From contig NZ_VUNH01000004.1 in assembly GCF_009695745.1 (NCBI RefSeq), positions 124,001 through 188,000 on the forward strand: a stretch of 64,000 nucleotides of DNA. The letters are read 5' to 3'. Origin of the DNA: Pyramidobacter porci (lineage in GTDB: Bacteria > Synergistota > Synergistia > Synergistales > Dethiosulfovibrionaceae). The notes under the pieces are model-generated. The model was not told where the DNA came from, did no database searches, and saw only the letters and a list, made by a program, of their open reading frames with translations. This document shows positions 3,292-64,000 of this stretch, piece by piece; position 1 is the first letter of the stretch, and every line of letters begins with the position of its first letter. Made by a program: the position numbers and the translations under genes.

Positions 3292-4320
3292 CTAAAAATA
3301 CGCGGGCACGCGCACCATGTCGCGGCCGATCTCGGCCAGCGTGGCCGCGCCGGTCATGAGCATGGTCCCCGCCAGCTCGGACTGGATTTTTTTCAAATAG
3401 AGCTCCACGCCTTCGGCGCCGCCGCCGAAGGCCGATACGGTGACGGGACGGCCGATCAGCACGGCGTCCGCGCCCAGCGCCAGCATTTTGAACACGTCGA
3501 CGCCGCTTCTGACGCCGCCGTCGACAAAGATCTTCATGCGGCCGTTCACGGCCTGCGCGATCTCGGGCAGCACTTCCACGGTGGACTGGCCGTGGTCGAG
3601 CACGCGGCCGCCGTGGTTGGAGACGACGATGCCGTAGCACCCGGCTTCGAGAGCTTTGAGCGCTCCCTTGACGGACATGACGCCCTTGACGATGAACGGC
3701 GTTTTCCCCGCGGCTTCGACGAGGGCGCGAAGATCGGCGACGCCCTTGGGATAGACGGATTCGCCGCGCAGCTTCACGTTGACCAGGCCGGCGGCGTCCA
3801 CGTCCATGGCCACGGCCATCGCGCCGGCGGCGACGGCGTCGGCCATGCGCGCCAGCGCCTGCTTCATGGCCCATGGTTTGATGGTGGGCACGCCCCAGCC
3901 GCGCAGCGCCTTGATCGCCTCCAGCGGGCCGTAAAAGGCCTCGTCGGGCGAATCGCCGGTGAAGGCGGCACTTCCGGCGGCGTGCGCGCCTTTGACGACG
4001 CGCTCGCCGTTGGCGCCTTCGCCGAGGTCGGAAGCGTAGTTGAGCTTCATGCCGCCGATCGGCGCGGCGAAAACGGGCATCGCGAACGTGCGTCCGAAGA
4101 ACTCGCAGCCCGTGTCCTGGCCGCGGTCGGCGTAGAGCGTGTCGAGCACGAGCTTCACTTCCGCAAGGGCGGCGACGTTGCGCACGAACGTGGCGCCGGT
4201 CCCCTTGCCGCCCACGCCGGGCACCTCGCCGCGGCAGGCGCGCCCGTCGCACACCGGGCAGACGCGGCACTTGGCCGCCAGCACCTTGCGCGCGTTTTCC
4301 AGCACTTCTTTGTAATCCAT
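3292..4320 (-). CDS. FMN-dependent alpha-hydroxy-acid oxidising protein
   Basis: A 342-residue (beta/alpha)8 flavoprotein of the lactate oxidase/glycolate oxidase family; it oxidises a 2-hydroxyacid to the keto acid with FMN. Seen: the substrate/flavin motif SNHGGRVLDHGQST with the catalytic His, and the phosphate-binding end VDGGVRSGVDVFKMLALGA then VLIGRP. The N-terminus carries a cysteine cluster CRVCPVC and RACRGEVPG (residues about 17-30) found in anaerobe versions but not in classic oxidases; it may bind a metal or FeS group, which is inference. The start was placed at the ATG of MDYKEVLEN (4320) because AGGGGGAT lies 6 bases upstream; the frame is open for 23 more codons but without a ribosome site. 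It is convergent with the lyase gene. Its physiological substrate (lactate or another hydroxyacid) is not known. Confidence 0.82.
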   Translation of the reverse strand: MDYKEVLENARKVLAAKCRVCPVCDGRACRGEVPGVGGKGTGATFVRNVAALAEVKLVLDTLYADRGQDTGCEFFGRTFAMPVFAAPIGGMKLNYASDLGEGANGERVVKGAHAAGSAAFTGDSPDEAFYGPLEAIKALRGWGVPTIKPWAMKQALARMADAVAAGAMAVAMDVDAAGLVNVKLRGESVYPKGVADLRALVEAAGKTPFIVKGVMSVKGALKALEAGCYGIVVSNHGGRVLDHGQSTVEVLPEIAQAVNGRMKIFVDGGVRSGVDVFKMLALGADAVLIGRPVTVSAFGGGAEGVELYLKKIQSELAGTMLMTGAATLAEIGRDMVRVPAYF

Positions 4321-4375
4321 CACAGATCCCCCTATAATAGCAAAATATCGAACAAAACTCCGTTCCCCTGCTCCT

Positions 4376-4381
4376 ATTATA
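4376..4381 (-). promoter_or_regulatory. Candidate -10 box of the FMN enzyme gene
   Basis: On the minus strand TATAAT lies about 55 bases before the chosen start codon at 4320. No good -35 box is seen at 16-18 bases, where the sequence is occupied by the terminator stem at 4392-4435. Confidence 0.4.
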
Positions 4382-4391
4382 CCGCACAAAA

Positions 4392-4435
4392 ATCAGGCCG
4401 AAACACTTCCTGTCGCAGAGGTGTTTCGGCCTGAT
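4392..4435. terminator. Bidirectional terminator, 15-bp perfect stem
   Basis: ATCAGGCCGAAACAC at 4392-4406 pairs perfectly with GTGTTTCGGCCTGAT at 4421-4435; TTTTT follows on the minus strand and TCGTTTCT on the plus strand. It separates the leftward island operon (ending at 4878) from the FMN enzyme and marks the left edge of the AT-richer island. Confidence 0.75.
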
Positions 4436-4877
4436 TCGTTTCTGTATATAAATAAGTTTTTCCACCGCGTCACCCTAGCCGTGCTTCTCTGTACAGCCAG
4501 CGACGCGCCAGGGTGTAATCCCGGCTGTTGAAGTCCATGAACCTGAAGGTGGTAATGAACGCCCCGGGACCGGCGGCAGGACTTTCGTGTAACGCATCAC
4601 ATCTAACAAATCTTCCTTGTCTGAATCATCCCACTCAGAGATTGCAACTGCGCAATAAATTCATAACAGGGCACAAACTGTGCCAGCGTCCCCAGACACT
4701 TACTTTCGTAGTACATAAGACTTTATGCGCATTACAAAAGTCATAACGTAATCTACATTTTCATCGGAGGGGCAACCAAAGATGTCGGTACTCTCGTCTG
4801 AGGGCAAGCCGCCGCAATGGGGAACAATAAAGTCACTCTAAGCCACTAATAGATTTTGGCTTAGAGCAGATGGTGCA
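4436..4877 (-). other. Intergenic stretch with a possible gene remnant
   Basis: No complete gene is seen in about 440 bases. On the minus strand a 51-codon stretch without stop runs from 4625 to a TGA at 4470-4472. Its end reads PGAFITTFRFMDFNSRDY followed by LARRWLYREARLG, which looks like real protein rather than noise but has no start codon and no ribosome site. It may be the tail of a gene lost when the island was inserted. I do not recognise the family. Confidence 0.3.
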
Positions 4878-6224
4878 TTAAACACGTTCCGGCGCAAAGA
4901 GCGGCGCCATGGGAAGATGCTCAGTCACAAGCTGGCTCTCCATAAGTTCAATGTAGCCTTTGCGTGTCAGAGTCGGAACAAACTCGTCCATAACGCCGCG
5001 TGCTCGAACTGCCCCATTTCTCAGCAAACGATACGCGATCAGGGCAAATATCTTTGCCGGCTCCACGTAAGCCTCATAAGGGTTGCCAACTTCAACAGAC
5101 GGACTGTGCAGGGCCCCAGAAAAACCTCCTGTATTGAACTGTAGGAGAGGCATCAGGCAGCTAATGTCCCCGTAGTCTCCGCTGCTCGTGGAATGAACGT
5201 CCGGCCCTGTCTCTGTCACAGGAGTCCCGTCCGCCACGATCTCCAGCGCTTCGCGAACAACGCTGGCATCCCTCACCGGTACGATAGGCAAATTGCCGGG
5301 CAAGGTGCTGATCGAGAGACCACAGCCAGTAGCGACGGCTCCGGCACGCATAGCCCGGTCTACCTTCTTTGCCGCATCCATGTAGGACGCGATCGTCTTT
5401 CCACGAATCGAGTACTCCAAACGTACATCATCAGCTATGATATTCGTAGCTTCGCCAGCTCCCGAAGCACGACCATGGATACGAATTGTGTCTTCGTCAT
5501 AGAAACTCTCCCGCTGAACATTCACGGCATGCATCGCGATCTCTGCCGCCATCATTGAGTCGACGCCATGCTGAGGGTCACCAGCAGCGTGAGCAGCACG
5601 TCCCTCAAAACGTACCATTTTCGTCACAAATCCGTTGCAGGATCGGTTGGCTACAAGATATTCCTTTACACAGGCTGCATGATGTCCTACGACAATATCC
5701 ACATCGTCCAAAGCGTTCAGACGCAGTAACTCACATTTACCGCATCCATAGCGGATCAAACCTTGTTCGCGCATTCTGTTTCTCAAAGCAATTTCTATAT
5801 ACTCCTCTGCGGGGACGCCAAAGAAAACAACGTTACCATCCAGAGCCGTTCTCACATCAGGCAAAGTCAACGCCATTGCAGCACCAATGACCCCGGCGAT
5901 TTGCGCGTTGTGCCCGCAACAGTGAGCTGCCCCAGTCTTGGGGTTAACGTGCGGACTGTTCGGGATCGGCAAAGCATCGAACTCACCCATTAGGCAGATG
6001 CTAGGACCGTCCACCCTCCCCTTCAAGCAGCTCTTAACACCTGTCACGGCCATGTTCGTTTGGGATTCCAGGCCGCACCGCCGCAACGCTTCGGTAAACT
6101 TTTTTGCTGTACGGTACTCTTGAAAACCAAGCTCCGCGTGATTCCAGATATCTGTCGCAAAGTTAATGATCTCATCCTTGCGAGCATCAATTGCCTCACA
6201 GATCCTTTGCTCGATAGTATCCAC
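4878..6224 (-). CDS. M20-family amidohydrolase (AbgB/carboxypeptidase-like)
   Basis: A 448-residue cytoplasmic zinc peptidase-like amidohydrolase of family M20D, which cleaves amide bonds of N-acyl or N-carbamoyl amino acids and small peptides. Seen: GEFDALP, the metal motif AHCCGHNAQ (usual HxCGHD/N), the PAEE glutamate pair, a dimerisation-type middle domain with AAHAAGDPQHGVDS, and a C-terminal histidine in FSGALHSPS. Translation starts at GTG (6222-6224), preceded by GGAAGGAAAGG. It is the last gene of the leftward island cluster, 65 bases after the LysR gene. In the pseudomonad ATC-to-cysteine route an N-carbamoyl-cysteine amidohydrolase of this superfamily follows ATC hydrolase, so linkage to the two ATC-hydrolase-like genes here suggests a similar second step; that is inference. 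Indole-acetyl- or aminobenzoyl-glutamate-type substrates remain possible. Confidence 0.82.
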   Translation of the reverse strand: MDTIEQRICEAIDARKDEIINFATDIWNHAELGFQEYRTAKKFTEALRRCGLESQTNMAVTGVKSCLKGRVDGPSICLMGEFDALPIPNSPHVNPKTGAAHCCGHNAQIAGVIGAAMALTLPDVRTALDGNVVFFGVPAEEYIEIALRNRMREQGLIRYGCGKCELLRLNALDDVDIVVGHHAACVKEYLVANRSCNGFVTKMVRFEGRAAHAAGDPQHGVDSMMAAEIAMHAVNVQRESFYDEDTIRIHGRASGAGEATNIIADDVRLEYSIRGKTIASYMDAAKKVDRAMRAGAVATGCGLSISTLPGNLPIVPVRDASVVREALEIVADGTPVTETGPDVHSTSSGDYGDISCLMPLLQFNTGGFSGALHSPSVEVGNPYEAYVEPAKIFALIAYRLLRNGAVRARGVMDEFVPTLTRKGYIELMESQLVTEHLPMAPLFAPERV

Positions 6225-6289: not shown

Positions 6290-7231
6290 TCAGTTTGCGG
6301 AAAGATACGCCTGAAGCCCCTGGACGAATGTCATCCCATCGTCGCTCAGCGCAGTGTTGGCATTCGTCAGGAGGCCTATATCTGACGTAATGGGACAATC
6401 CTTCAGTGCCAGGAAACGGCGTTTGCAAATGTCAAGCACCGAAGAATTTTCACCGTATGGAACGTCCACATGCCCAGAGTTGAGCGTATACCCGTCGGTT
6501 AATTCCAGCAGCTCATACTGTGCAGCCCGACTATCAACAATGTAACGTATTTTGCTCACTGGAAGATGAAGACGATCCAGTATGTCGGAGTATGGGCCAG
6601 AGTCAAGACTTTCCTGTAAGATCTGCGGAAAATTCTGAAGCTGTGCAGGTTCAACTTCATCGCCAGCTACGTGGTACAGTGGATTTTTCTCGCCGATATC
6701 CACGCCGACGCGCATTTTACATAATGGGCGCCAGACCAGCTTCCGCAAATTATAGAATGCAAGAGTGTTCTTTCTGTAACAGCTCCACAGGCGCACAATA
6801 CCGAAATCAACAATGCGGTTGGTGATCGAGTCCACCATATCACCGCTGTAGTCCTCTTTGATCAGGATGCGTATATTATCAGCCTCCATTGTCGATGCCA
6901 CGCGGGCTATCACGCTGCTGATATAAAAAAAACCATTGCTGATAATCCGCAGTGTTTTTGAAAGCGACATGCGAGGCGAATGATTCTGCATCGCGTAGAG
7001 CTGATTTAATTGCTCATTGATAGGCATAATGTGAGCAAGGAACATTCGGCCAAATGAGGTCAGTCTTACACCCTTCGGACTGCGATTAAAGATTCTATGC
7101 CCAAATTCATTCTCGACATTGATAATCGCGTTGGATACAGCAGATTGTGCTATAAAGAGGTTTTGCGCCGCCTGATTGATGGAACCAGCACGAGCGGCTT
7201 CGATAATGTACTTGATCTGATTATTGGTCAT
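6290..7231 (-). CDS. LysR-family transcriptional regulator
   Basis: A 313-residue LysR-type regulator. The N-terminal winged helix-turn-helix is clear (residues about 2-60: IIEAARAGSINQAAQNLFIA, QSAVSNAIINVE, FNRSPKGVRLTSFG), followed by the periplasmic-binding-protein-like effector domain. It lies within the island, on the same strand as the transporter, ATC-hydrolase-like genes and M20 gene, 94 bases after the former and 65 bases before the latter. Unlike most LysR genes it is not divergent from its likely targets. It probably senses the imported compound and controls the island promoter near 14.8 kb; this is inferred from position only. Base composition is lower in GC than in flanking genes. 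Confidence 0.88.
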   Translation of the reverse strand: MTNNQIKYIIEAARAGSINQAAQNLFIAQSAVSNAIINVENEFGHRIFNRSPKGVRLTSFGRMFLAHIMPINEQLNQLYAMQNHSPRMSLSKTLRIISNGFFYISSVIARVASTMEADNIRILIKEDYSGDMVDSITNRIVDFGIVRLWSCYRKNTLAFYNLRKLVWRPLCKMRVGVDIGEKNPLYHVAGDEVEPAQLQNFPQILQESLDSGPYSDILDRLHLPVSKIRYIVDSRAAQYELLELTDGYTLNSGHVDVPYGENSSVLDICKRRFLALKDCPITSDIGLLTNANTALSDDGMTFVQGLQAYLSAN

Positions 7232-8281: not shown

Positions 8282-9166
8282 CTAAAGCAAAACTGCCTTA
8301 AGAGGCTGAAGAACAAGCTTTTCAAGAAGTTCTAGCGCTTCATAACCTGTCCATGCAGTGAACTTTGTCTCAATATTGGCTGTCAGATTCAGCGGCAGAG
8401 GAAAGTTCAATTCCACGAAATCGGCATTGAACAGTTTGAGCGTCCTCGCTGCCTGACTTTGCATAGCTTCGATAGCTTGCACAGCCCATTTCTTGAGCCC
8501 CTCAGCCACAGCACACGTGCCTTCAGGACCTTCGCGTTCGGTCGCGACCTCAAGCAGATGGAAGTAAATTGAAAGCGTCATGCCCGTAGCCCCATCGTCG
8601 AAGTTCGTATTAGGAAGCTGTGCTAGATCAACCTCACCATGCGTGAAGGATTCAGCGCCGCGCTCCGATGAGACATTCGCCTCGCGAAAGTACATTGAAA
8701 AGCGGCAGAAAGTATCGCACGGGGATGTCAAAATCTTCGAAAGATTCAGCTGACCTTTATCCTCCGTAAAAGCCAGAAGGCGCGCGTACTGATATTCTTC
8801 ACAGTACAGACTGCCGATCTTCGACTCGCTGTACTTGTTCCAGAAGTTCGCCAGCGGACAAGTGTACACCTCCCAAATCTGGCGATCTTCTTGATCAAAA
8901 AGCACATTGCAGCGAACGCGAGGGTCATCCAAATAATCCAGTCCTGTGTTGAACAGATTGTGCAAGTTGGTTGGAATGCCCGCTGTCCTCAGCTTTTTGA
9001 GTTGCGCCATGCCGCTTTCGCGCCCTGCACGACGGACCGCCTCGCGTATAATGCCTTCTCCTTTCCGTTCGCCGCAAAGTGCCAAGATGCTGCGCGACAG
9101 AAACATAAACATCGCCGAAAAAGCGTCCTGCTTATTCTGCAACCTTATTTCCGGATACGTATACAT
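8282..9166 (-). CDS. L-2-amino-thiazoline-4-carboxylate hydrolase family protein, copy 2
   Basis: A 294-residue paralogue of the next gene. Core motifs: YTCPLANFWNKYSESKIGSL with YCEEYQYARL, and SPCDTFCRFSMYFREA. The N-terminal third (SRSILALCGERKGEGIIREA, then VRRAGRESG) also matches the arrangement of copy 1 (RQLIDAFGLEGERALREG, TRRFGRDRA), so the two arose by tandem duplication and then diverged widely. It starts with MYTYPE 50 bases after the DppF-like ATPase gene on the minus strand. Role as for copy 1: hydrolysis of a small ring or amide compound after import, inferred from family and context. Which of the two keeps catalytic residues cannot be judged from sequence alone. Confidence 0.7.
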   Translation of the reverse strand: MYTYPEIRLQNKQDAFSAMFMFLSRSILALCGERKGEGIIREAVRRAGRESGMAQLKKLRTAGIPTNLHNLFNTGLDYLDDPRVRCNVLFDQEDRQIWEVYTCPLANFWNKYSESKIGSLYCEEYQYARLLAFTEDKGQLNLSKILTSPCDTFCRFSMYFREANVSSERGAESFTHGEVDLAQLPNTNFDDGATGMTLSIYFHLLEVATEREGPEGTCAVAEGLKKWAVQAIEAMQSQAARTLKLFNADFVELNFPLPLNLTANIETKFTAWTGYEALELLEKLVLQPLKAVLL

Positions 9167-55790: not shown

Positions 55791-57299
55791 ATGGCTGAAA
55801 AGACAAATGCCAATATAGGCTTTGAAAAACAGATATGGGACGCGGCCTGTGTCTTATGGGGACACATTCCAGCCGCAGAATACAGAAAGGTCATCATCGG
55901 ATTGATTTTCCTTCGTTATATATCCAGCGCTTTCGAGAGAAGATATAACGAGCTTAAAAGAGAAGGCGATGGTTTTGAGGACGATCGCGATGCTTATACA
56001 ATGTATAATATATTCTATGTTCCCCGAGAGGCTCGATGGAGCACAGTGGCAGCTAAAGCCCATACTCCAGAAATCGGTAAAGTCATTGATGACGCCATGC
56101 GAGCGATTGAGGCTGAAAATAAAAACCTCAAGAACGTGCTTCCTAAAAACTATGCAAGTCCGGATCTTGACAAGAAAATCCTAGGCGATGTTGTAGACAT
56201 TTTTACCAACAGTATCGACATGTCAGATACAGAAAAGAGCAAGGATCTTCTAGGACGAACCTATGAATACTGCATTGCACAGTTCGCAGAAAAAGAAGGC
56301 GTCGGCGGCGGGGAATTCTATACGCCATCAAGCGTGGTGAGGACACTGGTTTCAATTCTCAAGCCGTATGAGAATTGTCGTATATATGATTGTTGCTGCG
56401 GCAGCGGCGGCATGTTCGTTCAGTCTGAAAAATTCATTGAAACACACAGTCATAAGAGAGGAGCAGTCTCAGTATATGGGCAGGAAGCCAATCCGGATAC
56501 CTGGAAAATGGCAAAAATGAACATGGCTATCCGAGGCATCGACGCTGACTTCGGAGCCTATAACGCCGATACATTTACAAACGACCTTCATCCTACATTA
56601 AAAGCAGATTTCATCCTTGCCAATCCCCCGTTCAATTATCATCCGTGGGGACAGGAAACGCTTCAGAATGATAAGAGGTGGAAATACGGTCTTCCTCCTG
56701 CGGGAAACGCCAACTATGCATGGATTCAGCACATGATCCATCATTTGGCACCGAATGGAAAAATCGGCCTTGTTCTTGCTAACGGAGCACTTTCCACACA
56801 GTCAAGCGGCGAAGGCGAAATCAGAAAGAAAATTATAGAGGACGACCTGATTGAAGGCATTGTCGCTATGCCTACACAACTTTTCTACAGTGTGACGATC
56901 CCGGTGACACTATGGTTCATTACAAGGGGGAAGAAACAGAAAGGCAAGACGCTCTTCATCGATGCCCGCAAGATGGGACACATGGTCGATCGCAAGCACA
57001 GAGACTTCTCCGATGAGGATATTCAGAAGCTGGCGGATACCTTCGAGGCGTTCCAGAACGGAACACTTAAGGACATGAAAGGCTTCTGTTCGATTGCCAC
57101 TCTGCAGGATATCGCAAAACAGGATTATATCTTGACGCCAGGACGCTATGTGGGCATTGAAGAGCCGGAGGATGACGGCGAGCCGTTTGAAGAGAAAATG
57201 GCGCGGCTCACATCGGAACTATCAGATATGTTTGCCAAGTCTCACGAACTGGAGAACGAGATCAGGAGAAAGTTAGGGGCGATCGGATATGAAATATAA
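55791..57299 (+). CDS. hsdM: Type I restriction-modification DNA methyltransferase HsdM
   Basis: A 502-residue N6-adenine methyltransferase subunit. The N-terminal helical region (EKQIWDAACVLWGHIPAAEY) is followed by the SAM motif IYDCCCGSGGMFVQS and catalytic ADFILANPPFNYHPWG (NPPF). C-terminal region KQDYILTPGRYVGIEEPEDD is standard. With HsdS it methylates the target; with HsdR it cuts foreign DNA. It ends at 57299, 11 bases past the start of the first hsdS half. The gene is AT-richer than the chromosome, as is the whole island. Confidence 0.96.
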   Translation: MAEKTNANIGFEKQIWDAACVLWGHIPAAEYRKVIIGLIFLRYISSAFERRYNELKREGDGFEDDRDAYTMYNIFYVPREARWSTVAAKAHTPEIGKVIDDAMRAIEAENKNLKNVLPKNYASPDLDKKILGDVVDIFTNSIDMSDTEKSKDLLGRTYEYCIAQFAEKEGVGGGEFYTPSSVVRTLVSILKPYENCRIYDCCCGSGGMFVQSEKFIETHSHKRGAVSVYGQEANPDTWKMAKMNMAIRGIDADFGAYNADTFTNDLHPTLKADFILANPPFNYHPWGQETLQNDKRWKYGLPPAGNANYAWIQHMIHHLAPNGKIGLVLANGALSTQSSGEGEIRKKIIEDDLIEGIVAMPTQLFYSVTIPVTLWFITRGKKQKGKTLFIDARKMGHMVDRKHRDFSDEDIQKLADTFEAFQNGTLKDMKGFCSIATLQDIAKQDYILTPGRYVGIEEPEDDGEPFEEKMARLTSELSDMFAKSHELENEIRRKLGAIGYEI

Positions 57300-57792
57300 T
57301 CTTTCGAATATATGCGGGTACGCCAAGGGCAAAGTTGATGTCTCAGCTCTAGATGCTGAGACATACATATCCACAGAAAACATGATACCCAATAAAGGAG
57401 GCATTACCAATGCCTCATCGCTTCCAACCGCAGCACAGACACAAGCTTTTCTTGCGGGGGATGTGTTGGTCTCAAATATTAGACCATATTTCAAAAAGAT
57501 ATGGTTTGCAGAATTTGACGGCGGATGTTCAAACGACGTTCTTGTATTCAGAGCAAAGAATGGCATAAACAAAAGATTTCTCTATTATGTTCTTGCGGAT
57601 AACACATTTTTCGATTATTCCATGGCAACATCCAAAGGCACAAAGATGCCCCGCGGAGATAAGACTGCCATTATGAAATATGAGGTTCCGAAATTTACAT
57701 ACAAAGAACAGAAAAAAATCGCAGGCATTTTAGAGATATTTGATAAAAAAATATATCTTAATACTGAAATAAACGAGAATTTAGCGGTTTAA
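57289..57792 (+). CDS. hsdS: HsdS N-terminal specificity half (half A), split
   Basis: A 167-residue truncated specificity subunit: one target-recognition domain (YISTENMIPNKGGITNASSL, LVSNIRPYFKKIWFAEFDGG, SKGTKMPRGDKTAIMKYEVP) and the first part of the central helix (QKKIAGILEIFDKKIYLNTE) ending INENLAV. A whole HsdS has about 370-400 residues with two such domains. The frame ends 9 bases after the recombination core TAAACGAGAATTTA at 57770-57783. Inverting 57770-58432 would join it in frame to the minus-strand half B as INENL-FDQAQAMYK, making a full protein. As it stands it is truncated, though half-size HsdS proteins can sometimes dimerise. It overlaps the hsdM end. Confidence 0.88.
   Translation: MKYNLSNICGYAKGKVDVSALDAETYISTENMIPNKGGITNASSLPTAAQTQAFLAGDVLVSNIRPYFKKIWFAEFDGGCSNDVLVFRAKNGINKRFLYYVLADNTFFDYSMATSKGTKMPRGDKTAIMKYEVPKFTYKEQKKIAGILEIFDKKIYLNTEINENLAV
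57770..57783 (+). repeat. hsdS recombination site 1
   Basis: TAAACGAGAATTTA on the plus strand inside half A, reading NENL. Together with the inverted copy at 58419 it brackets half B. The flank to the right (TTTAGCGG and about 80 bases more) matches that of site 4 on the other strand. Confidence 0.85.
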
Positions 57793-58418
57793 AAGTCGAT
57801 ATCAGAGACATCCAGTTCGCCGGACATAAGCTTAGGCAATAAAGTGTTCCGGAGTTCGGCAAGTTTGACGCTTTCGCTTCGGCGGTTCCTAATTTCAGTG
57901 AATATCGGCTGGATAAGATCATTGAACATTGAAAGTTCTTCTTTAGATGGAATTGCAATGGGCACCTTATTTAGGTTGGTTTGACTTATCTTAGACTGCA
58001 CAGCGCCAGTGACAATTGCTTTAACACTCGTGAGGCTGAAGAGCAAGTACAGAAGTTCAACGTTATAACCGTTCTTACCTGTGATAATGTGAGCATGATT
58101 ATTTACCCAGAACTTGCCATCAACATACTGGAGAATGGGATATCCCTGACCATCAACAACGGTACCATCCTCTCCGAGTAGGAGATAGATGCCGTCAAAA
58201 AGATAGCGGTCAACGTAATCCATTACTGATGTCGCACCGTAGTATGGATAAATTTTATCCAAATCGGCGCGTTCGCGGCTTGAGAGAGGTATCCGTTTGG
58301 AATCATGTAATTCGATGATTTCCGATACTGTACCGTTGTGCCAGTTATCAGGCATTGAATTACCAAACGGATCAAAATCTATGAAACGTGACTTGTACAT
58401 TGCCTGAGCTTGATCAAA
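57789..58418 (-). CDS. hsdS: HsdS C-terminal specificity half (half B), inverted and without start
   Basis: A minus-strand frame encoding the second half of an HsdS: recognition domain (NWHNGTVSEIIELHDSKRIP, YYGATSVMDYVDRYLFDGIY, VQSKISQTNLNKVPIAIPSK) and the closing helix FTEIRNRRSESVKLAELRNT then LLPKLMSGELDVSDIDF. The nearest ATG (58400) is internal: the coding sequence runs without stop up to the recombination site at 58419-58432, where it would continue from NENL of a first half. It has no ribosome site of its own and should be silent in this orientation. The end nearly matches the end of the intact HsdS at 60651. Confidence 0.88.
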   Translation of the reverse strand, partial: FDQAQAMYKSRFIDFDPFGNSMPDNWHNGTVSEIIELHDSKRIPLSSRERADLDKIYPYYGATSVMDYVDRYLFDGIYLLLGEDGTVVDGQGYPILQYVDGKFWVNNHAHIITGKNGYNVELLYLLFSLTSVKAIVTGAVQSKISQTNLNKVPIAIPSKEELSMFNDLIQPIFTEIRNRRSESVKLAELRNTLLPKLMSGELDVSDIDF

Positions 58419-58432
58419 TAAATTCTCGTTTA
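58419..58432 (-). repeat. hsdS recombination site 2
   Basis: TAAATTCTCGTTTA on the plus strand, the exact inverse of site 1, at the open end of half B. Confidence 0.85.
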
Positions 58433-58527
58433 AATGTGATCAACTCTCACCAACGGCGAGAGTCAAACCAACGGAACTGCCGTTGATGTCGTTCTCTGGA
58501 AAATACCAAATAGAAGGAGAAACGACA
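58433..58527 (+). promoter_or_regulatory. Region upstream of the recombinase with two small hairpins
   Basis: ACTCTC-ACCAACGGC-GAGAGT and CAACGG-AACTG-CCGTTG (about 58443-58480) form two neighbouring hairpins before the recombinase start; they may control it or serve as accessory sites. AGAAGGAGA is the ribosome site. Confidence 0.4.
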
Positions 58528-59514
58528 ATGAAGCATGAATTGGCGACGGAAGTAATGCAACAGATGCTCCCATACCTCGATAATGCGCAGCTGAAACAGC
58601 TGAGACAGGTGCTGGAACAGACGCTCTTTCATTATGAAGTGACCGGCAACATAGTAAAGCCAGAGGAGGATGACAGCAATGAGCTTGTAATGATGTTTAT
58701 AGCCGCCAAGCGGATCGAAGGCTGCTCAGAAAAAACACTAAAATATTATCAGACCACGATTGATGCAATGCTGTCATCTCTCCCAAAGAATGTCCGGCAT
58801 ATCCTTACGGAGGATCTACGGACATATCTGACGGAATATCAAAGCAAGAATCAATCCAGCCGCGTGACGATTGACAATATCCGCAGAATCCTGTCCAGCT
58901 TCTTTTCGTGGCTTGAAGATGAGGATTACATCATAAAAAGTCCAGTGCGCCGTATCCATAAGGTTAAAACGGCAAGCAACATCAAGGAAACCTACTCGGA
59001 TGAGGATCTAGAAAAGATGCGGGATAACTGTAAGGAAATCAGAGATTTGGCAATGATCGATATGCTGGCTTCAACTGGAATGCGAGTTGGAGAAATGGTC
59101 CTTCTGAACCGCAATGATATAGACTTTTCAGAGCGGGAATGCGTGGTGTTCGGTAAAGGAGATAAGGAGCGCATTGTTTACTTTAATGCCAGAGCAAAAC
59201 TGCATCTGAAGGCGTACCTTGACAGCAGGAAGGACGCTAATCCCGCGCTCTTTGTAACATTGAGAGCGCCTCATGAGCGGATTCAGATTGGAGGAATAGA
59301 GCACAGACTCCGCAATATGGGCAAACGACTGAACATTTCTAAGGTACATCCACATAAATTCCGACGGACACTGGCGACAATGGCGATTGATAAAGGAATG
59401 CCTATAGAGCAGCTTCAGAGGCTCCTTGGGCATCAACGAATAGATACGACCTTGCAATATGCGATGGTCAAACAGAGCAATGTAAAGATAGCTCATAAGA
59501 AATATATAGGTTAG
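58528..59514 (+). CDS. Tyrosine recombinase (phase-variation integrase)
   Basis: A 328-residue XerC/D-like site-specific recombinase. N-terminal SAM-like DNA-binding region (AAKRIEGCSEKTLKYYQTTI, RVTIDNIRRILSSFFSWLED) and catalytic domain with Arg in ASTGMRVGEMVLLNRNDIDF, Lys in VFGKGDKERIVYF, HPHKFRRTLATMAIDKGMPI (H-x-x-R), GHQRIDTTLQ (His) and Tyr in YAMVKQSN. It lies between two pairs of hsdS halves, each flanked by a TAAACGAGAATTTA core, so it is very likely the enzyme that inverts them. The start MKHELATE is chosen for AAGGAGA upstream. Confidence 0.93.
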   Translation: MKHELATEVMQQMLPYLDNAQLKQLRQVLEQTLFHYEVTGNIVKPEEDDSNELVMMFIAAKRIEGCSEKTLKYYQTTIDAMLSSLPKNVRHILTEDLRTYLTEYQSKNQSSRVTIDNIRRILSSFFSWLEDEDYIIKSPVRRIHKVKTASNIKETYSDEDLEKMRDNCKEIRDLAMIDMLASTGMRVGEMVLLNRNDIDFSERECVVFGKGDKERIVYFNARAKLHLKAYLDSRKDANPALFVTLRAPHERIQIGGIEHRLRNMGKRLNISKVHPHKFRRTLATMAIDKGMPIEQLQRLLGHQRIDTTLQYAMVKQSNVKIAHKKYIG

Positions 59515-59526
59515 GACAGTGATTTT

Positions 59527-60651
59527 ATGGGAGAATGGCTCGAAAAAAGAATGGATGATATAGCTGAGTTCAATCCTCGTGAATCGATAAAAAAAGGCGC
59601 TATTGCAAAAAAAATCGCAATGGATAAGTTGCAACCTTTCTGCCGAGATGTTTCTAGATTTGAAATGGAGCCGTTTTCTGGCGGAACAAAATTTAGAAAT
59701 GGCGATATCCTTATGGCCCGGATTACGCCTTGCCTCGAAAACGGCAAGACTGCAAGAGTTGATGTGCTTGATGAGGATGAGGTTGGATTTGGATCAACTG
59801 AATATATCGTGCTCAGAGCTAAAGAGAGAAACGACCCAGACTTTACCTATTATCTGGTTACAAGCTCTCTAGTCAGAGAACCTGCCATAAAATCGATGGT
59901 AGGATCATCTGGTAGACAGAGAATTCAGACTGACGTGCTTCAGAAGTTAAAAGTTAAGGTCCCAGATTTGAAAAGTCAGCAAGCTATAGCAGGAATCCTT
60001 AAATCTTTGGATGATAAAATCGCAGCCAATCGGAGGGTAAACGAGAATTTAGAGGAGCAAGTTTCCTTGCTATATGTAGCACAGTTTGAAGAATTTATCC
60101 CTCATGATGGTGTTCACCCTTCTTCATGGAAACAAGGTATATTAGCAGACATTGCATCTATAACAAGTGGTAAACGTCCTCCTATGAAATCAGCAGATAG
60201 AACCGATGTTGCAACAATTCCTTTGGTTGGTGCCGCCTCCGTAATGGGTTTTACTTCTGACTTTAATCACAAAGACAAAATTCTTGTCACTGGTCGTGTT
60301 GGAACACATGGCGTGGTTCAGCGTTTCAATTCGCCTTGTTGGACTTCAGATAACACTCTTGTTATTACAAGCGATTTCTACGAGTACGTCTACCAAGTTT
60401 TGCAAAGAATAGACTATCATTCTTTGAATCGCGGCTCTACTCAACCACTAATCACACAAGGAGATATGAACAAGGTAGTTGTACTCATCCCCGATGCAGA
60501 ATCGCTTCATAATTTTGAATCCACTGCTGGTCAGCTCATGGAATTGTATGAGGTTAACTTGTCGGAAAATCGCAGACTCGCTGAATTGCGAGACACCTTA
60601 CTACCACGCCTAATGTCCGGGGAACTTGACGTTTCCGACCTCGACCTCTAA
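59527..60651 (+). CDS. hsdS: Type I restriction specificity subunit HsdS, intact (halves C and D)
   Basis: A 374-residue HsdS with two recognition domains and two conserved helices. First half C: FSGGTKFRNGDILMARITPC, GRQRIQTDVLQKLKVKVPDL; central helix SLDDKIAANRRVNENLEEQ with the recombination core at 60038-60051; second half D: WKQGILADIASITSGKRPPM, VTGRVGTHGVVQRFNSPCWT; closing RRLAELRDTLLPRLMSGELD VSDLDL. It decides the DNA target of the methylase and nuclease. Only 12 bases follow the recombinase stop and the ribosome site is weak (AGGACAG, 12 bases away), so expression from this place may be low compared with the copy next to hsdM. Confidence 0.92.
   Translation: MGEWLEKRMDDIAEFNPRESIKKGAIAKKIAMDKLQPFCRDVSRFEMEPFSGGTKFRNGDILMARITPCLENGKTARVDVLDEDEVGFGSTEYIVLRAKERNDPDFTYYLVTSSLVREPAIKSMVGSSGRQRIQTDVLQKLKVKVPDLKSQQAIAGILKSLDDKIAANRRVNENLEEQVSLLYVAQFEEFIPHDGVHPSSWKQGILADIASITSGKRPPMKSADRTDVATIPLVGAASVMGFTSDFNHKDKILVTGRVGTHGVVQRFNSPCWTSDNTLVITSDFYEYVYQVLQRIDYHSLNRGSTQPLITQGDMNKVVVLIPDAESLHNFESTAGQLMELYEVNLSENRRLAELRDTLLPRLMSGELDVSDLDL
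60038..60051 (+). repeat. hsdS recombination site 3
   Basis: TAAACGAGAATTTA, plus strand, in the middle of the intact hsdS, reading NENL in the same frame as site 1. Confidence 0.85.
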
Positions 60652-60656
60652 GCCGC

Positions 60657-60670
60657 TAAATTCTCGTTTA
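60657..60670 (-). repeat. hsdS recombination site 4
   Basis: TAAATTCTCGTTTA, inverse orientation, 6 bases after the intact hsdS stop. Read on the minus strand it gives NENLAA and then a stop, so a first half joined here would be truncated like half A is now. Confidence 0.85.
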
Positions 60671-60682
60671 GGAGAAATTAAA

Positions 60683-61918
60683 ATGGAAGATGAAGATAGA
60701 GAAGAATATTTGAGCGAAAATGGGATAGAAGTTAACTCTTTAGCAGATTACATAAAACAAATAAATGAACTATATTCCGATAAGGAAGCTGAAGCCCAGC
60801 AATTATATTTTAGAGGACAACAATCAGATGTTTGGGATATTCAACCTGTTCTATTTAGAGAAAACAACTTAATTAACGAGCATTTCTTTATGAGTGAACC
60901 TAAAGTTCGCAGGCCTGAGGCGTTTCAGAATATGCAGTCTGATTTTGAAATAATGACAAAATGTCAACATTATGGACTTAGTACGCGTTTGCTTGACGTG
61001 ACACGAAATCCATTGGTAGCCATGTATTTTGCATGTCAACCATGCGATAATATAGATGATTCTATATTTAATGCGGGTGTAATCTATTCCGGTTCGAACT
61101 ATTCAGTGCCAGATCAATCAAAAGATGTACAGATCATAACCGCGCTATCCAAGCAAGATTTGTCAAGCGGAGAAAACAAGTTGATAAGTATTCTTGACAG
61201 ATTATATGAAAGAGGAATTATTACTCAATCTGATTGTGAAACGTGGAAGCAAGAATACGAAAAGTTCATTATTAATAAATTGCAAACAAATCTTTTGGTT
61301 TCGCCCACTTACAGTAATGAAAGATTACTTCGCCAAAATGGAATGTTCATCTTGCCGGCTTGCTTCGTTATCTCTGGGGATACTATAGATAATTTTACCA
61401 TTACTAAGGGAACTGCAAGTTTGAAGCAAGAATTTAACGAAACAATATTCTTCGTCAAAGAGAACAATAAGAGTCAAATTCTAAAAGAACTTGATCGATG
61501 TGATATTAACGAGTCTACATTATTTCCAGAATTAGAGCATTTACTTTCATATTTACACGAAAGCAGATCTTCACATATGTTGACACCCTCATTTGAAAAA
61601 TATGAAAGAGTAGCAAATCCATTTTTAACAAATATACAAATCGCTGATGACGTTTACAAAAACAGTACCTTTAAAATAAGAATATTTGATAAATGCTTAA
61701 ATGGAATAGACGCTTCCATAAAGGAAGAGGTTTGGAAAGCTATCCTTGACGGAGTAAAGACCCGAGACTGGTATAAAAGAGGACAAACACTAAGCGGAAT
61801 GCGCGTTAATATAAAAGGGGCGTTAAATAAATCTGATAAGCCAACAAAAACAGCGAAAGAGATTGTTGATTGTACAATACTTATCGCACAGGATATAGCA
61901 AAGGAGAAAAGTCAATGA
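60683..61918 (+). CDS. FRG-domain protein in the restriction-modification locus
   Basis: A 411-residue protein with an N-terminal FRG domain: [20 protein letters not shown], then [20 protein letters not shown] and [13 protein letters not shown] are its hallmark (the conserved Arg-Gly start, the QHYGLxTRLLD core). The C-terminal region has no family known to me. FRG proteins are frequent in defence islands and may modify or cleave nucleotides or proteins, but the mechanism is unclear. It begins 13 bases after recombination site 4 with AGGAGAAATT upstream and overlaps hsdR by 4 bases, so it is co-translated with the nuclease. Residues are strongly AT-coded (many Asn, Lys, Ile). Confidence 0.85.
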
Positions 61919-64000
61919 GTGATAGTTATACCGAAGCAGACTATGAGAATTCAGTCATTGAGCTGTTTCAGAATATGGGTTATCGGCATGTATATGCCCC
62001 CGATCTCAAGAGAGAATTCAGAAGCCCCTTATATGAAGATGAGCTGGAACAATCTCTCCACAGACTGAATCCAGACATGCCGGAAGATGCGATTAACGAC
62101 GCTCTCTTTAAATTGAAGAACTTCGAGAATGCGGAACTTATTCAGAGAAATGCTATTTTTATGGATTATCTTCAGCATGGTATTGAAGTGCGCTATTTTG
62201 TTAAAAACGAGGAACGCTCCGGTCTTGTTTATTTAGCGGACTATAAAAATCCTGACAATAATTCATTTGTTATAGCAAACCAGTGGACGTTTGTTGAAAA
62301 CAGCAATAAACGCCCAGACGTGCTCCTGTTCCTCAATGGCCTCCCGGTCGTGCTTCTCGAACTCAAATCTCCATCTCGTGAAGAAACGAATGCGTCTGAG
62401 GCTTACACTCAGATCCGTAATTACATGCATGAGATCCCTTCCATGTTTATCTATAATTGTATCTGCGTTATGAGCGATCATCTCACGTCAAAAGCCGGAA
62501 CCATTACATCTGACGAAGATCGTTTCATGGAATGGAAGACAAAAGACGGAAATTATGAAAGTATGCAATACGCTCAGTTCAACACCTTCTTTGAAGGGAT
62601 GTTTGAGAAGGAGCGTTTGCTTGATATTATAAAAAATTTTATCTGTTTTTCTAACGAAGGGCTGAAGAAGTTTAAAATTCTTGCAGGATATCACCAGTAT
62701 TTCGCGGTTAAAAAGGCTATAAAGTCTACACAGCGCGCAACCCAAACCGACGGTAAGGGCGGCGTATTTTGGCATACGCAAGGCTCCGGCAAATCGCTCT
62801 CTATGGTTTTCTATACTCACTTGCTGCAGGAAGCACTGAACAATCCTACAATTGTTGTCATCACAGATCGCAACGATCTGGACGACCAGCTCTACGGGCA
62901 GTTCGCAAAGTGCAAAGATTTCCTCAGGCAGGAACCTGTCCATGCAGAAAGCAGACAAAATCTGAAAGATTTGCTGGCTGGCTGGAAGGTCAACGGCATC
63001 ATTTTCACGACGATGCAGAAGTTTGAGGAATCCTTTGACTGCCTTTCCGAACGCAGGAATATTATCGTAATGGCAGATGAAGCTCATCGTGGTCAGTATG
63101 GTTTGAAAGAAAAGATTGACGCAAAAACTGGCGAAATTAAGATCGGGTCTGCAAGAATCGTCAGGAACGCTCTTCCAAATGCAACATATATAGGCTTTAC
63201 CGGAACCCCAATTTCTATAAAGGATAGAAATACCAGAGAGGTTTTCGGCGATTATATTGATATTTACGATATGACACAGGCGGTCAAGGACGGGGCTACC
63301 CGCCCGGTTTACTACGAAAGCCGTGTGATCAAGCTCGCGCTGGATGAGAAAACCTTGAAGCTCATCGATCAGGAATACGATGCTATGGCCAATAATGCCG
63401 ATCCCGAGGTGATCGAGAGAAGCAAGAAGAAACTCGGTCAGATGGAAGCAATCCTCGGCAATGATAAGACGATTAATTCACTGGTCGATGATATTCTTGA
63501 TCACTATGAGAATTATCGTGCCAACCTCCTCACCGGTAAGGCAATGATTGTCGCTTATTCACGCCCGATCGCCGTGCAAATTTACAAGAGAATCTTGGAG
63601 TTGCGCCCGAGCTGGACCGACAAGGTCGCTGTTGTAATGACGAGCAGCAATAAAGATCCAGAGGAATGGAATCGGCTTATTGGCAATAAACGCCACAAAG
63701 ACGAACTCGCTGCAAAATTTAAGGATAACGACAGTTCTCTTAAGATCGCTATCGTTGTAGACATGTGGCTTACTGGGTTCGATGTTCCCTCTCTTGCAAC
63801 TATGTATGTCTACAGACCAATGCAAGGATACAGCCTGATGCAGGCTATCGCCCGTGTAAACAGAGTGTTCGGCGATAAGGAAGGCGGCCTTGTGGTTGAT
63901 TATATTGGTATTGCTTCTGCATTGAAACAGGCAATGAATGAGTATACTGCCCGCGATAAGAAAAATTATAGTGACACAGATATCGTTAAAGCCGCATATC
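61915..64000 (+). CDS. hsdR: Type I restriction endonuclease HsdR, 5' part
   Basis: About 695 codons of the motor/nuclease subunit; it runs off the window end. The N-terminal endonuclease domain has the PD-(D/E)xK elements [20 protein letters not shown]. Helicase motifs follow: [35 protein letters not shown] (DEAH), [16 protein letters not shown], and later [20 protein letters not shown] and [12 protein letters not shown] (V, VI). Together with HsdM and HsdS it translocates and cuts unmodified DNA. Starts 4 bases before the FRG gene's stop (ATGA overlap) with AAAGGAGAAAAGTCA upstream. Confidence 0.95.

Follow-up and report, generated by a model that had tools for sequence, protein, structure and literature searches.

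A predicted four-specificity hsdS shufflon of Pyramidobacter porci and the leader RNA of its recombinase

The stretch of the P. porci genome analysed here, 64,000 nucleotides in length (the window), encodes a type I restriction-modification operon whose hsdS genes form a phase-variable system of a known kind. The locus most probably operates as a reversible switch between four specificities, in which the leader RNA of the recombinase message keeps the enzyme in check. The argument is built on features read from the sequence, namely the recombination sites, the reading frames across them, the catalytic motifs of the recombinase, the identity of the cores within the locus, the arrangements present in relatives and the predicted fold of the leader. 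A first-pass annotation had proposed a four-site shufflon with four specificities and a resident recombinase, which is well supported by the sequence and by relatives in other arrangements. The conserved leader RNA and the occurrence of one full-length hsdS at a time had been missed there and, as far as the present searches reach, are new.

Organisation of the locus and its reachable states

The hsdM, hsdS and hsdR genes, identified together with their neighbours by Pfam, NCBIfam and PADLOC, are located in a single locus comprising the following features.

55791-57299, plus strand: hsdM, type I DNA methyltransferase subunit (Pfam N6_Mtase 7e-109, HsdM_N 1e-23; PADLOC MTase_I 3e-201)
57289-57792, plus strand: hsdS N-half A, split at present, 167 aa, ending in NENLAV and a stop (Methylase_S 2e-10; translation)
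57770-57783, plus strand: core site s1
57792-58418, minus strand: hsdS C-half B, in inverted orientation and joined to no N-half (Methylase_S 1e-13; in frame from s2)
58419-58432, minus strand: core site s2
58528-59514, plus strand: XerA-like tyrosine recombinase (hsdS invertase), 328 aa (Phage_integrase 3e-32; NF040815 above cut-off)
59527-60051, plus strand: hsdS N-half C, starting just past the recombinase stop (Methylase_S, two stretches in C-D)
60038-60051, plus strand: core site s3
60052-60651, plus strand: hsdS C-half D, joined to C (gene call, Methylase_S, translation)
60657-60670, minus strand: core site s4
60683-61918, plus strand: FRG-domain accessory protein in the hsdS-hsdR interval (Pfam FRG 2e-18; PADLOC PDC-S15 9e-139)
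61915-64000, plus strand: hsdR, restriction subunit, running beyond the window end (TIGR00348 9e-181)

The remainder of hsdR is present on the same contig past the window end. The start of N-half A overlaps hsdM, and the full-length HsdS, C-D, occupies 59527-60651 and consists of 374 aa; gene calls and translation agree with the earlier assignment of A as split, B as inverted and C and D as joined. The best PADLOC model of the FRG gene (60683-61918), PDC-S15, is that of a candidate defence gene.

The core TAAACGAGAATTTA (14 bp) occurs in four identical copies in the 64-kb window, and a motif search confirmed the positions and strands previously assigned to them. With up to two mismatches allowed the count in the window stays at four, compared with 0.24 expected from shuffles, none of 100 of which reached four. 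Exact copies of the 14-mer are absent from the rest of the 2.5-Mb genome, all four being located inside the type I operon. The sites place inverted repeats in the coding frame of two distinct pairs of hsdS modules, A and C sharing 29% identity and B and D 33%, and four different targets are therefore expected. Joining the halves in silico at the core preserves the reading frame in each of the four products, A-B (374 aa), A-D (364 aa), C-B (384 aa) and C-D (374 aa); the four proteins would be predicted to read four motifs.

The tyrosine recombinase noted earlier between the hsdS halves is a complete XerA-like gene. It contains four catalytic motifs (TGMRVGE, GKGDKE, HPHKFRR and LGHQRIDTTLQY), which together with the profile matches indicate that the active site of this linked site-specific recombinase is intact, and its closest solved relative is XerA (PDB 5hxy, 2e-23). 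A TTG at 58483 was rejected as the start since it falls within the leader RNA, and the ATG at 58528 was assigned instead.

The reachable states were enumerated with a model in which the sites have the orientation + - + -, inversions occur between sites 1x2, 2x3, 3x4 and 1x4, and excision occurs between the direct repeats 1x3 and 2x4. The pairs s1/s3 and s2/s4, being direct repeats, would permit excision, but neither an excised circle nor a reintegrated product was observed. Every combination of A or C with B or D is reachable in this model. A-B arises in one event (1x2), as does C-B (2x3), which is formed on the minus strand (58419 x 60038), so that these two outcomes, the former by inversion of 57770-58432, stand as originally proposed. 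A-D had been thought to arise by a single inversion as well; it requires at least two events, because inversion between 57770 and 60657 sets the 3' end of D beside A.

In the proposed mechanism the XerA-like recombinase would exchange DNA at the four identical 14-bp cores, which are located in central-helix codons of hsdS. The N-halves would keep their places, A following hsdM and C following the recombinase gene, and the C-halves B and D would be flipped and exchanged, giving A-B, A-D, C-B and C-D with four predicted bipartite targets. In the present state the full gene is C-D, and A exists as a 167-aa half. The leader, with its pseudoknot and a hairpin over the ribosome-binding site, would hold translation of the recombinase low, and switching would be rare.

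Relatives, their arrangements and the single full-length hsdS

The family was sampled as 80 recombinase relatives from a species-level genome set, with further members from order-wide searches and plasmids. The 80 relatives belong mostly to Firmicutes, with some Spirochaetia, Succinivibrionaceae and Oxalobacter, and a DNA search of E. coli found no relative. In the large majority of the 80, four sites in the order + - + - surround the recombinase, and hsdM and hsdR are found at opposite ends of this array; this layout is mostly absent from relatives below about 60% identity. It is thus not private to the window and is common in gut Firmicutes. Loci of this layout may already be covered by gut-wide inverton surveys such as that of Huang et al. 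2020. The gene in the hsdS-hsdR interval varies, encoding an FRG protein in L046, L069 and L078, DUF3800 in L177-L180 and other products elsewhere, and the FRG gene, previously suggested as a possible mark of a subtype, is one of several such variable neighbours.

Four clean sites are present in 56 loci, and in 55 of these the inner 12 nt do not differ from site to site, although nine variants exist between loci, the chance that two random loci share a variant being 0.19. The variable positions are central (TAAA-YRNN-AATTTA), the pattern expected if the strand-exchange region had to be matched between partners and were not read by the enzyme. Nothing is shared in the flanks of the outer sites beyond the core. 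Two loci, L066 (2894-8113) and L040 (3587-11451), contain at least six core sites and a repeated recombinase-S unit, reflecting either tandem expansion of the shufflon or duplication in the assembly. A variant layout is found in two Cyanobacteria/Gastranaerophilales metagenome-assembled genomes (MAGs), L053 (1-3240) and L077 (1-3222), where hsdM and an N-half are located inside the recombinase-side segment. The contigs of both end exactly at a core on either side, and that of L055 ends within one base of one, which is consistent with mixed populations because an assembler stops where two junctions coexist.

Alternative arrangements of near-identical loci were found in relatives only, among them Lactococcus plasmids and the pair L042/L047. 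Four Lactococcus plasmid records carry one locus, whose recombinase and hsdM proteins do not differ between records, in three arrangements: in pJM2A and pUC073A, the state of L177, A is joined to C-half X, C is split and C-half Z is inverted; in pUCCL627F (L180) A is joined to Z, C is split and X is inverted; and in pJM1A (L178) A is split, X is inverted and C is joined to X. Segments that changed place are 100% identical, with breakpoints near the cores. X is present twice in pJM1A (4286-4948 and 6529-7191) and Z has been lost, which simple inversion cannot produce; possible causes are recombination among copies of the plasmid and an assembly that is mixed or chimeric. In Massiliimalia (L042) and an Oscillospiraceae MAG (L047) A, the recombinase and C are 99.9-100% identical and an 878-bp segment of 99.8% identity is inverted. 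The arrangement also differs among four Ligilactobacillus salivarius plasmids. Judging by these relatives, the P. porci strain would switch too, and its hsdS shufflon is very probably active.

After de-duplication, 77 loci are forward-oriented and readable at all four sites, and 73 of them contain exactly one full-length hsdS. A is joined and C split in 38, A is split and C joined in 35 (the state of the window), neither is joined in three and both are joined in one. Against an expectation of half under equal odds this gives p = 2e-17 before allowing for kinship. The recombinase tree requires at least 23 changes of the N-half in use, with the four exceptions representing four separate changes, and for this reason kinship does not explain the pattern. 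It may result either from selection against two or no complete S genes or from the two short inversions being disfavoured; in the state model the rule is kept if events are limited to 1x4, 2x3 and excision-reintegration. In loci of flipped orientation, where selection should ignore the outer segment, six of seven, a small sample in which one locus lacks its fourth site, fit the rule.

It would be quite improbable for the P. porci locus to be a frozen relic of a system that recombines in relatives, fixed here as C-D with a dead A, even though the evidence for the strain comes from one genome and decayed invertase genes with a kept leader exist elsewhere (L187, L188 and L191). Here the recombinase is free of stops and complete in its catalytic motifs, the four identical cores show no damage, the reading frames of both C-halves stay open as far as a common end point, and each of the four joins is in frame. 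A different question is whether A contributes in its split form. A split N-half mostly terminates six codons from the core, two residues after NxNL, since the C-half ends in a sequence (TAAGCCGC-core) that encodes a stop in either direction; GCGGCTTA is conserved in the flank consensus at this bidirectional stop, which yields a tidy half-HsdS. The 167-aa A half might itself be made and form a symmetric specificity unit, raising the outputs above four, and the engineered half-HsdS EcoR124INT is active (PMC3320862). We consider this reading doubtful, as the tidy stop may merely avoid antisense read-through and C-D from the same operon may outcompete the half. The preferred reading is that of a reversible switch with four outputs.

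The island was acquired horizontally, adjoining guaB. Its GC content is 35-46%, compared with 60-69% upstream; the recombinase is absent from all five congeners, which contain just Xer-like matches at 25-34%; and identity to the congeners, at 91-97% across guaB, is lost at the guaB stop codon (window 55425). Of 188 genomes from the phylum, only five encode the recombinase. No mobile phage or plasmid carrying the window copy was found; members of the recombinase family also occur on plasmids of lactic acid bacteria and on one unverified faecal phage scaffold.

The leader RNA of the recombinase

The region between s2 and the recombinase start contains a conserved structured leader.

58443-58527, plus strand: leader RNA of the recombinase (covariation on 49 leaders; covariance-model match of 90 bits at 58441-58532)
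58443-58448 with 58458-58463, plus strand: leader helix P1
58451-58457 (CAACGGC, P1 loop) with 58479-58485 (GCCGUUG), plus strand: H-type pseudoknot
58487-58497 with 58516-58519 and 58521-58527, plus strand: hairpin P3, enclosing the GGAG ribosome-binding site

In an alignment of 49 leaders 92.4% of the cells are paired. Two-sided changes number 141 cells, against 53.8+-7.5 in shuffles and 11-28 with slid partners, and affect all six pairs of P1, four of the seven pairs of the pseudoknot and four of the 11 pairs of P3. RNAalifold independently recovers the pairing of the pseudoknot strands and P3. The minimum-energy fold of the window sequence contains a local hairpin instead, formed by the second CCAACGG with CCGTTG; this was rejected, being paired in 65% of the cells and having covariation no higher than slid versions.

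A covariance model of the pseudoknot helix and P3 gives at least 48 bits in 72 of 81 loci, adjoining the recombinase start; this count is a census and not an independent test, most loci having also supplied sequences to the model. In 246 further genomes all matches of at least 40 bits are located at invertase genes or decayed ones, and a metabolite riboswitch with a wider regulon is less likely in view of this confinement. A known Rfam riboswitch was also rejected as the identity of the leader: the Rfam scan returned nothing above the gathering threshold, the best match being FTHFS at 23 bits against a threshold of 72.6, and the leaders of seven relatives matched no Rfam family. Rfam does detect a c-di-GMP-I riboswitch (51 bits) near the shufflon locus L141, at 8800-8882 on the minus strand. 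The leader RNA is kept beside decayed or stub invertase genes in L187, L188 and L191, near 1500-1590, an example being ATGAAAGAACAACTAATCACGGAAGTTATGTAG in L187.

Being 10 nt from core s2 and within the recombinable region, the conserved element might instead be a feature of the DNA, such as a recombinase binding site or arm sites near s2. This appears unlikely, however. G-U pairs are common among the kept pairs, which favours RNA over DNA, a pseudoknot is impossible in duplex DNA, and P3 pairs with the ribosome-binding site. No such sequence exists in the outer flanks of the other sites, and the leader stays at the recombinase start even where s2 is several hundred bases away.

As an RNA, the likeliest role of the leader is to hold translation of the recombinase low, which would make switching rare; it could alternatively act via RNA stability or as a protein-binding site. 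In the state with A joined, ribosomes would stop about 30 nt before the leader, and in the split state they would not. The leader may, as a tentative extension, represent a new class of cis-regulatory RNA for hsdS invertases across several phyla, making translation of the recombinase depend on some signal or on how the locus is arranged and, with restricted recombination, keeping exactly one full-length HsdS per genome, in which case switching would be regulated and not purely random.

Comparison with known systems

Through phase-variable methylation a clonal population can carry several epigenomes, and the determinants of switching rate are poorly known. Two features of the present family give access to this question: a conserved RNA structure that covers the start of the recombinase message and may set the switching frequency, and the strict pattern, across dozens of species, of a single full-length specificity gene at a time.

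A close counterpart is the phase-variable type I system of Listeria monocytogenes CC8/CC4, comprising hsdR, hsdM, two hsdS genes and a tyrosine recombinase, for which SMRT sequencing of CC4 revealed four methylation motifs for four alleles (PMC4783014, PMC7662400). Both have two hsdS genes around a tyrosine recombinase and four combinations of target recognition domains (TRDs). In the Listeria locus, however, the inverted repeats are of two classes, one of 16 nt at the 5' end and a central one of 29 nt, and the hsdS genes are oppositely oriented, the second lacking a start and promoter, whereas the window contains one 14-nt core four times and co-directional N-halves with their own starts, the C-halves alone being exchanged. 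A repeat search found no 5' repeat common to A and C of the Listeria type, which would allow N-halves to exchange; the locus therefore operates on similar lines but does not belong to the Listeria type. The suggestion that the locus is a new subtype thus holds in that its one-core, two-by-two layout is unlike the published Listeria scheme, and fails in that this layout characterises a widespread family and is not specific to the window.

In Streptococcus pneumoniae SpnIII/cod the tyrosine recombinase PsrA also inverts hsdS segments, at repeats of 15 (IR1), 298 and 85 bp (PMC4948785, PMC7096588). The shortness of IR1 is shared with the present cores, and the novelty earlier ascribed to a minimal 14-base core is not upheld given its 15 bp; that system differs in having three repeat classes, three hsdS genes, six alleles and a single expressed hsdS position. 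SpnIV/tvr resembles the locus in combining recombinase-driven shuffling of hsdS, there by excision and reintegration at direct repeats, with an RNA structure that limits recombinase expression (PMC6265443). The tvr structure is a terminator-like attenuator consisting of a 19-bp hairpin and five U, in contrast to the pseudoknot and ribosome-site hairpin of the window leader.

The four-way inverting system of Streptococcus suis likewise has a duplicated variable hsdS, inverted repeats and four alleles, and was reported with a REBASE survey restricted to repeats of at least 20 bp (PMC7394358). Its repeats are located before the 5' TRD and between the TRDs, whereas the 14-bp cores of the window are below the cut-off of the survey, and the family described here may consequently be undercounted.
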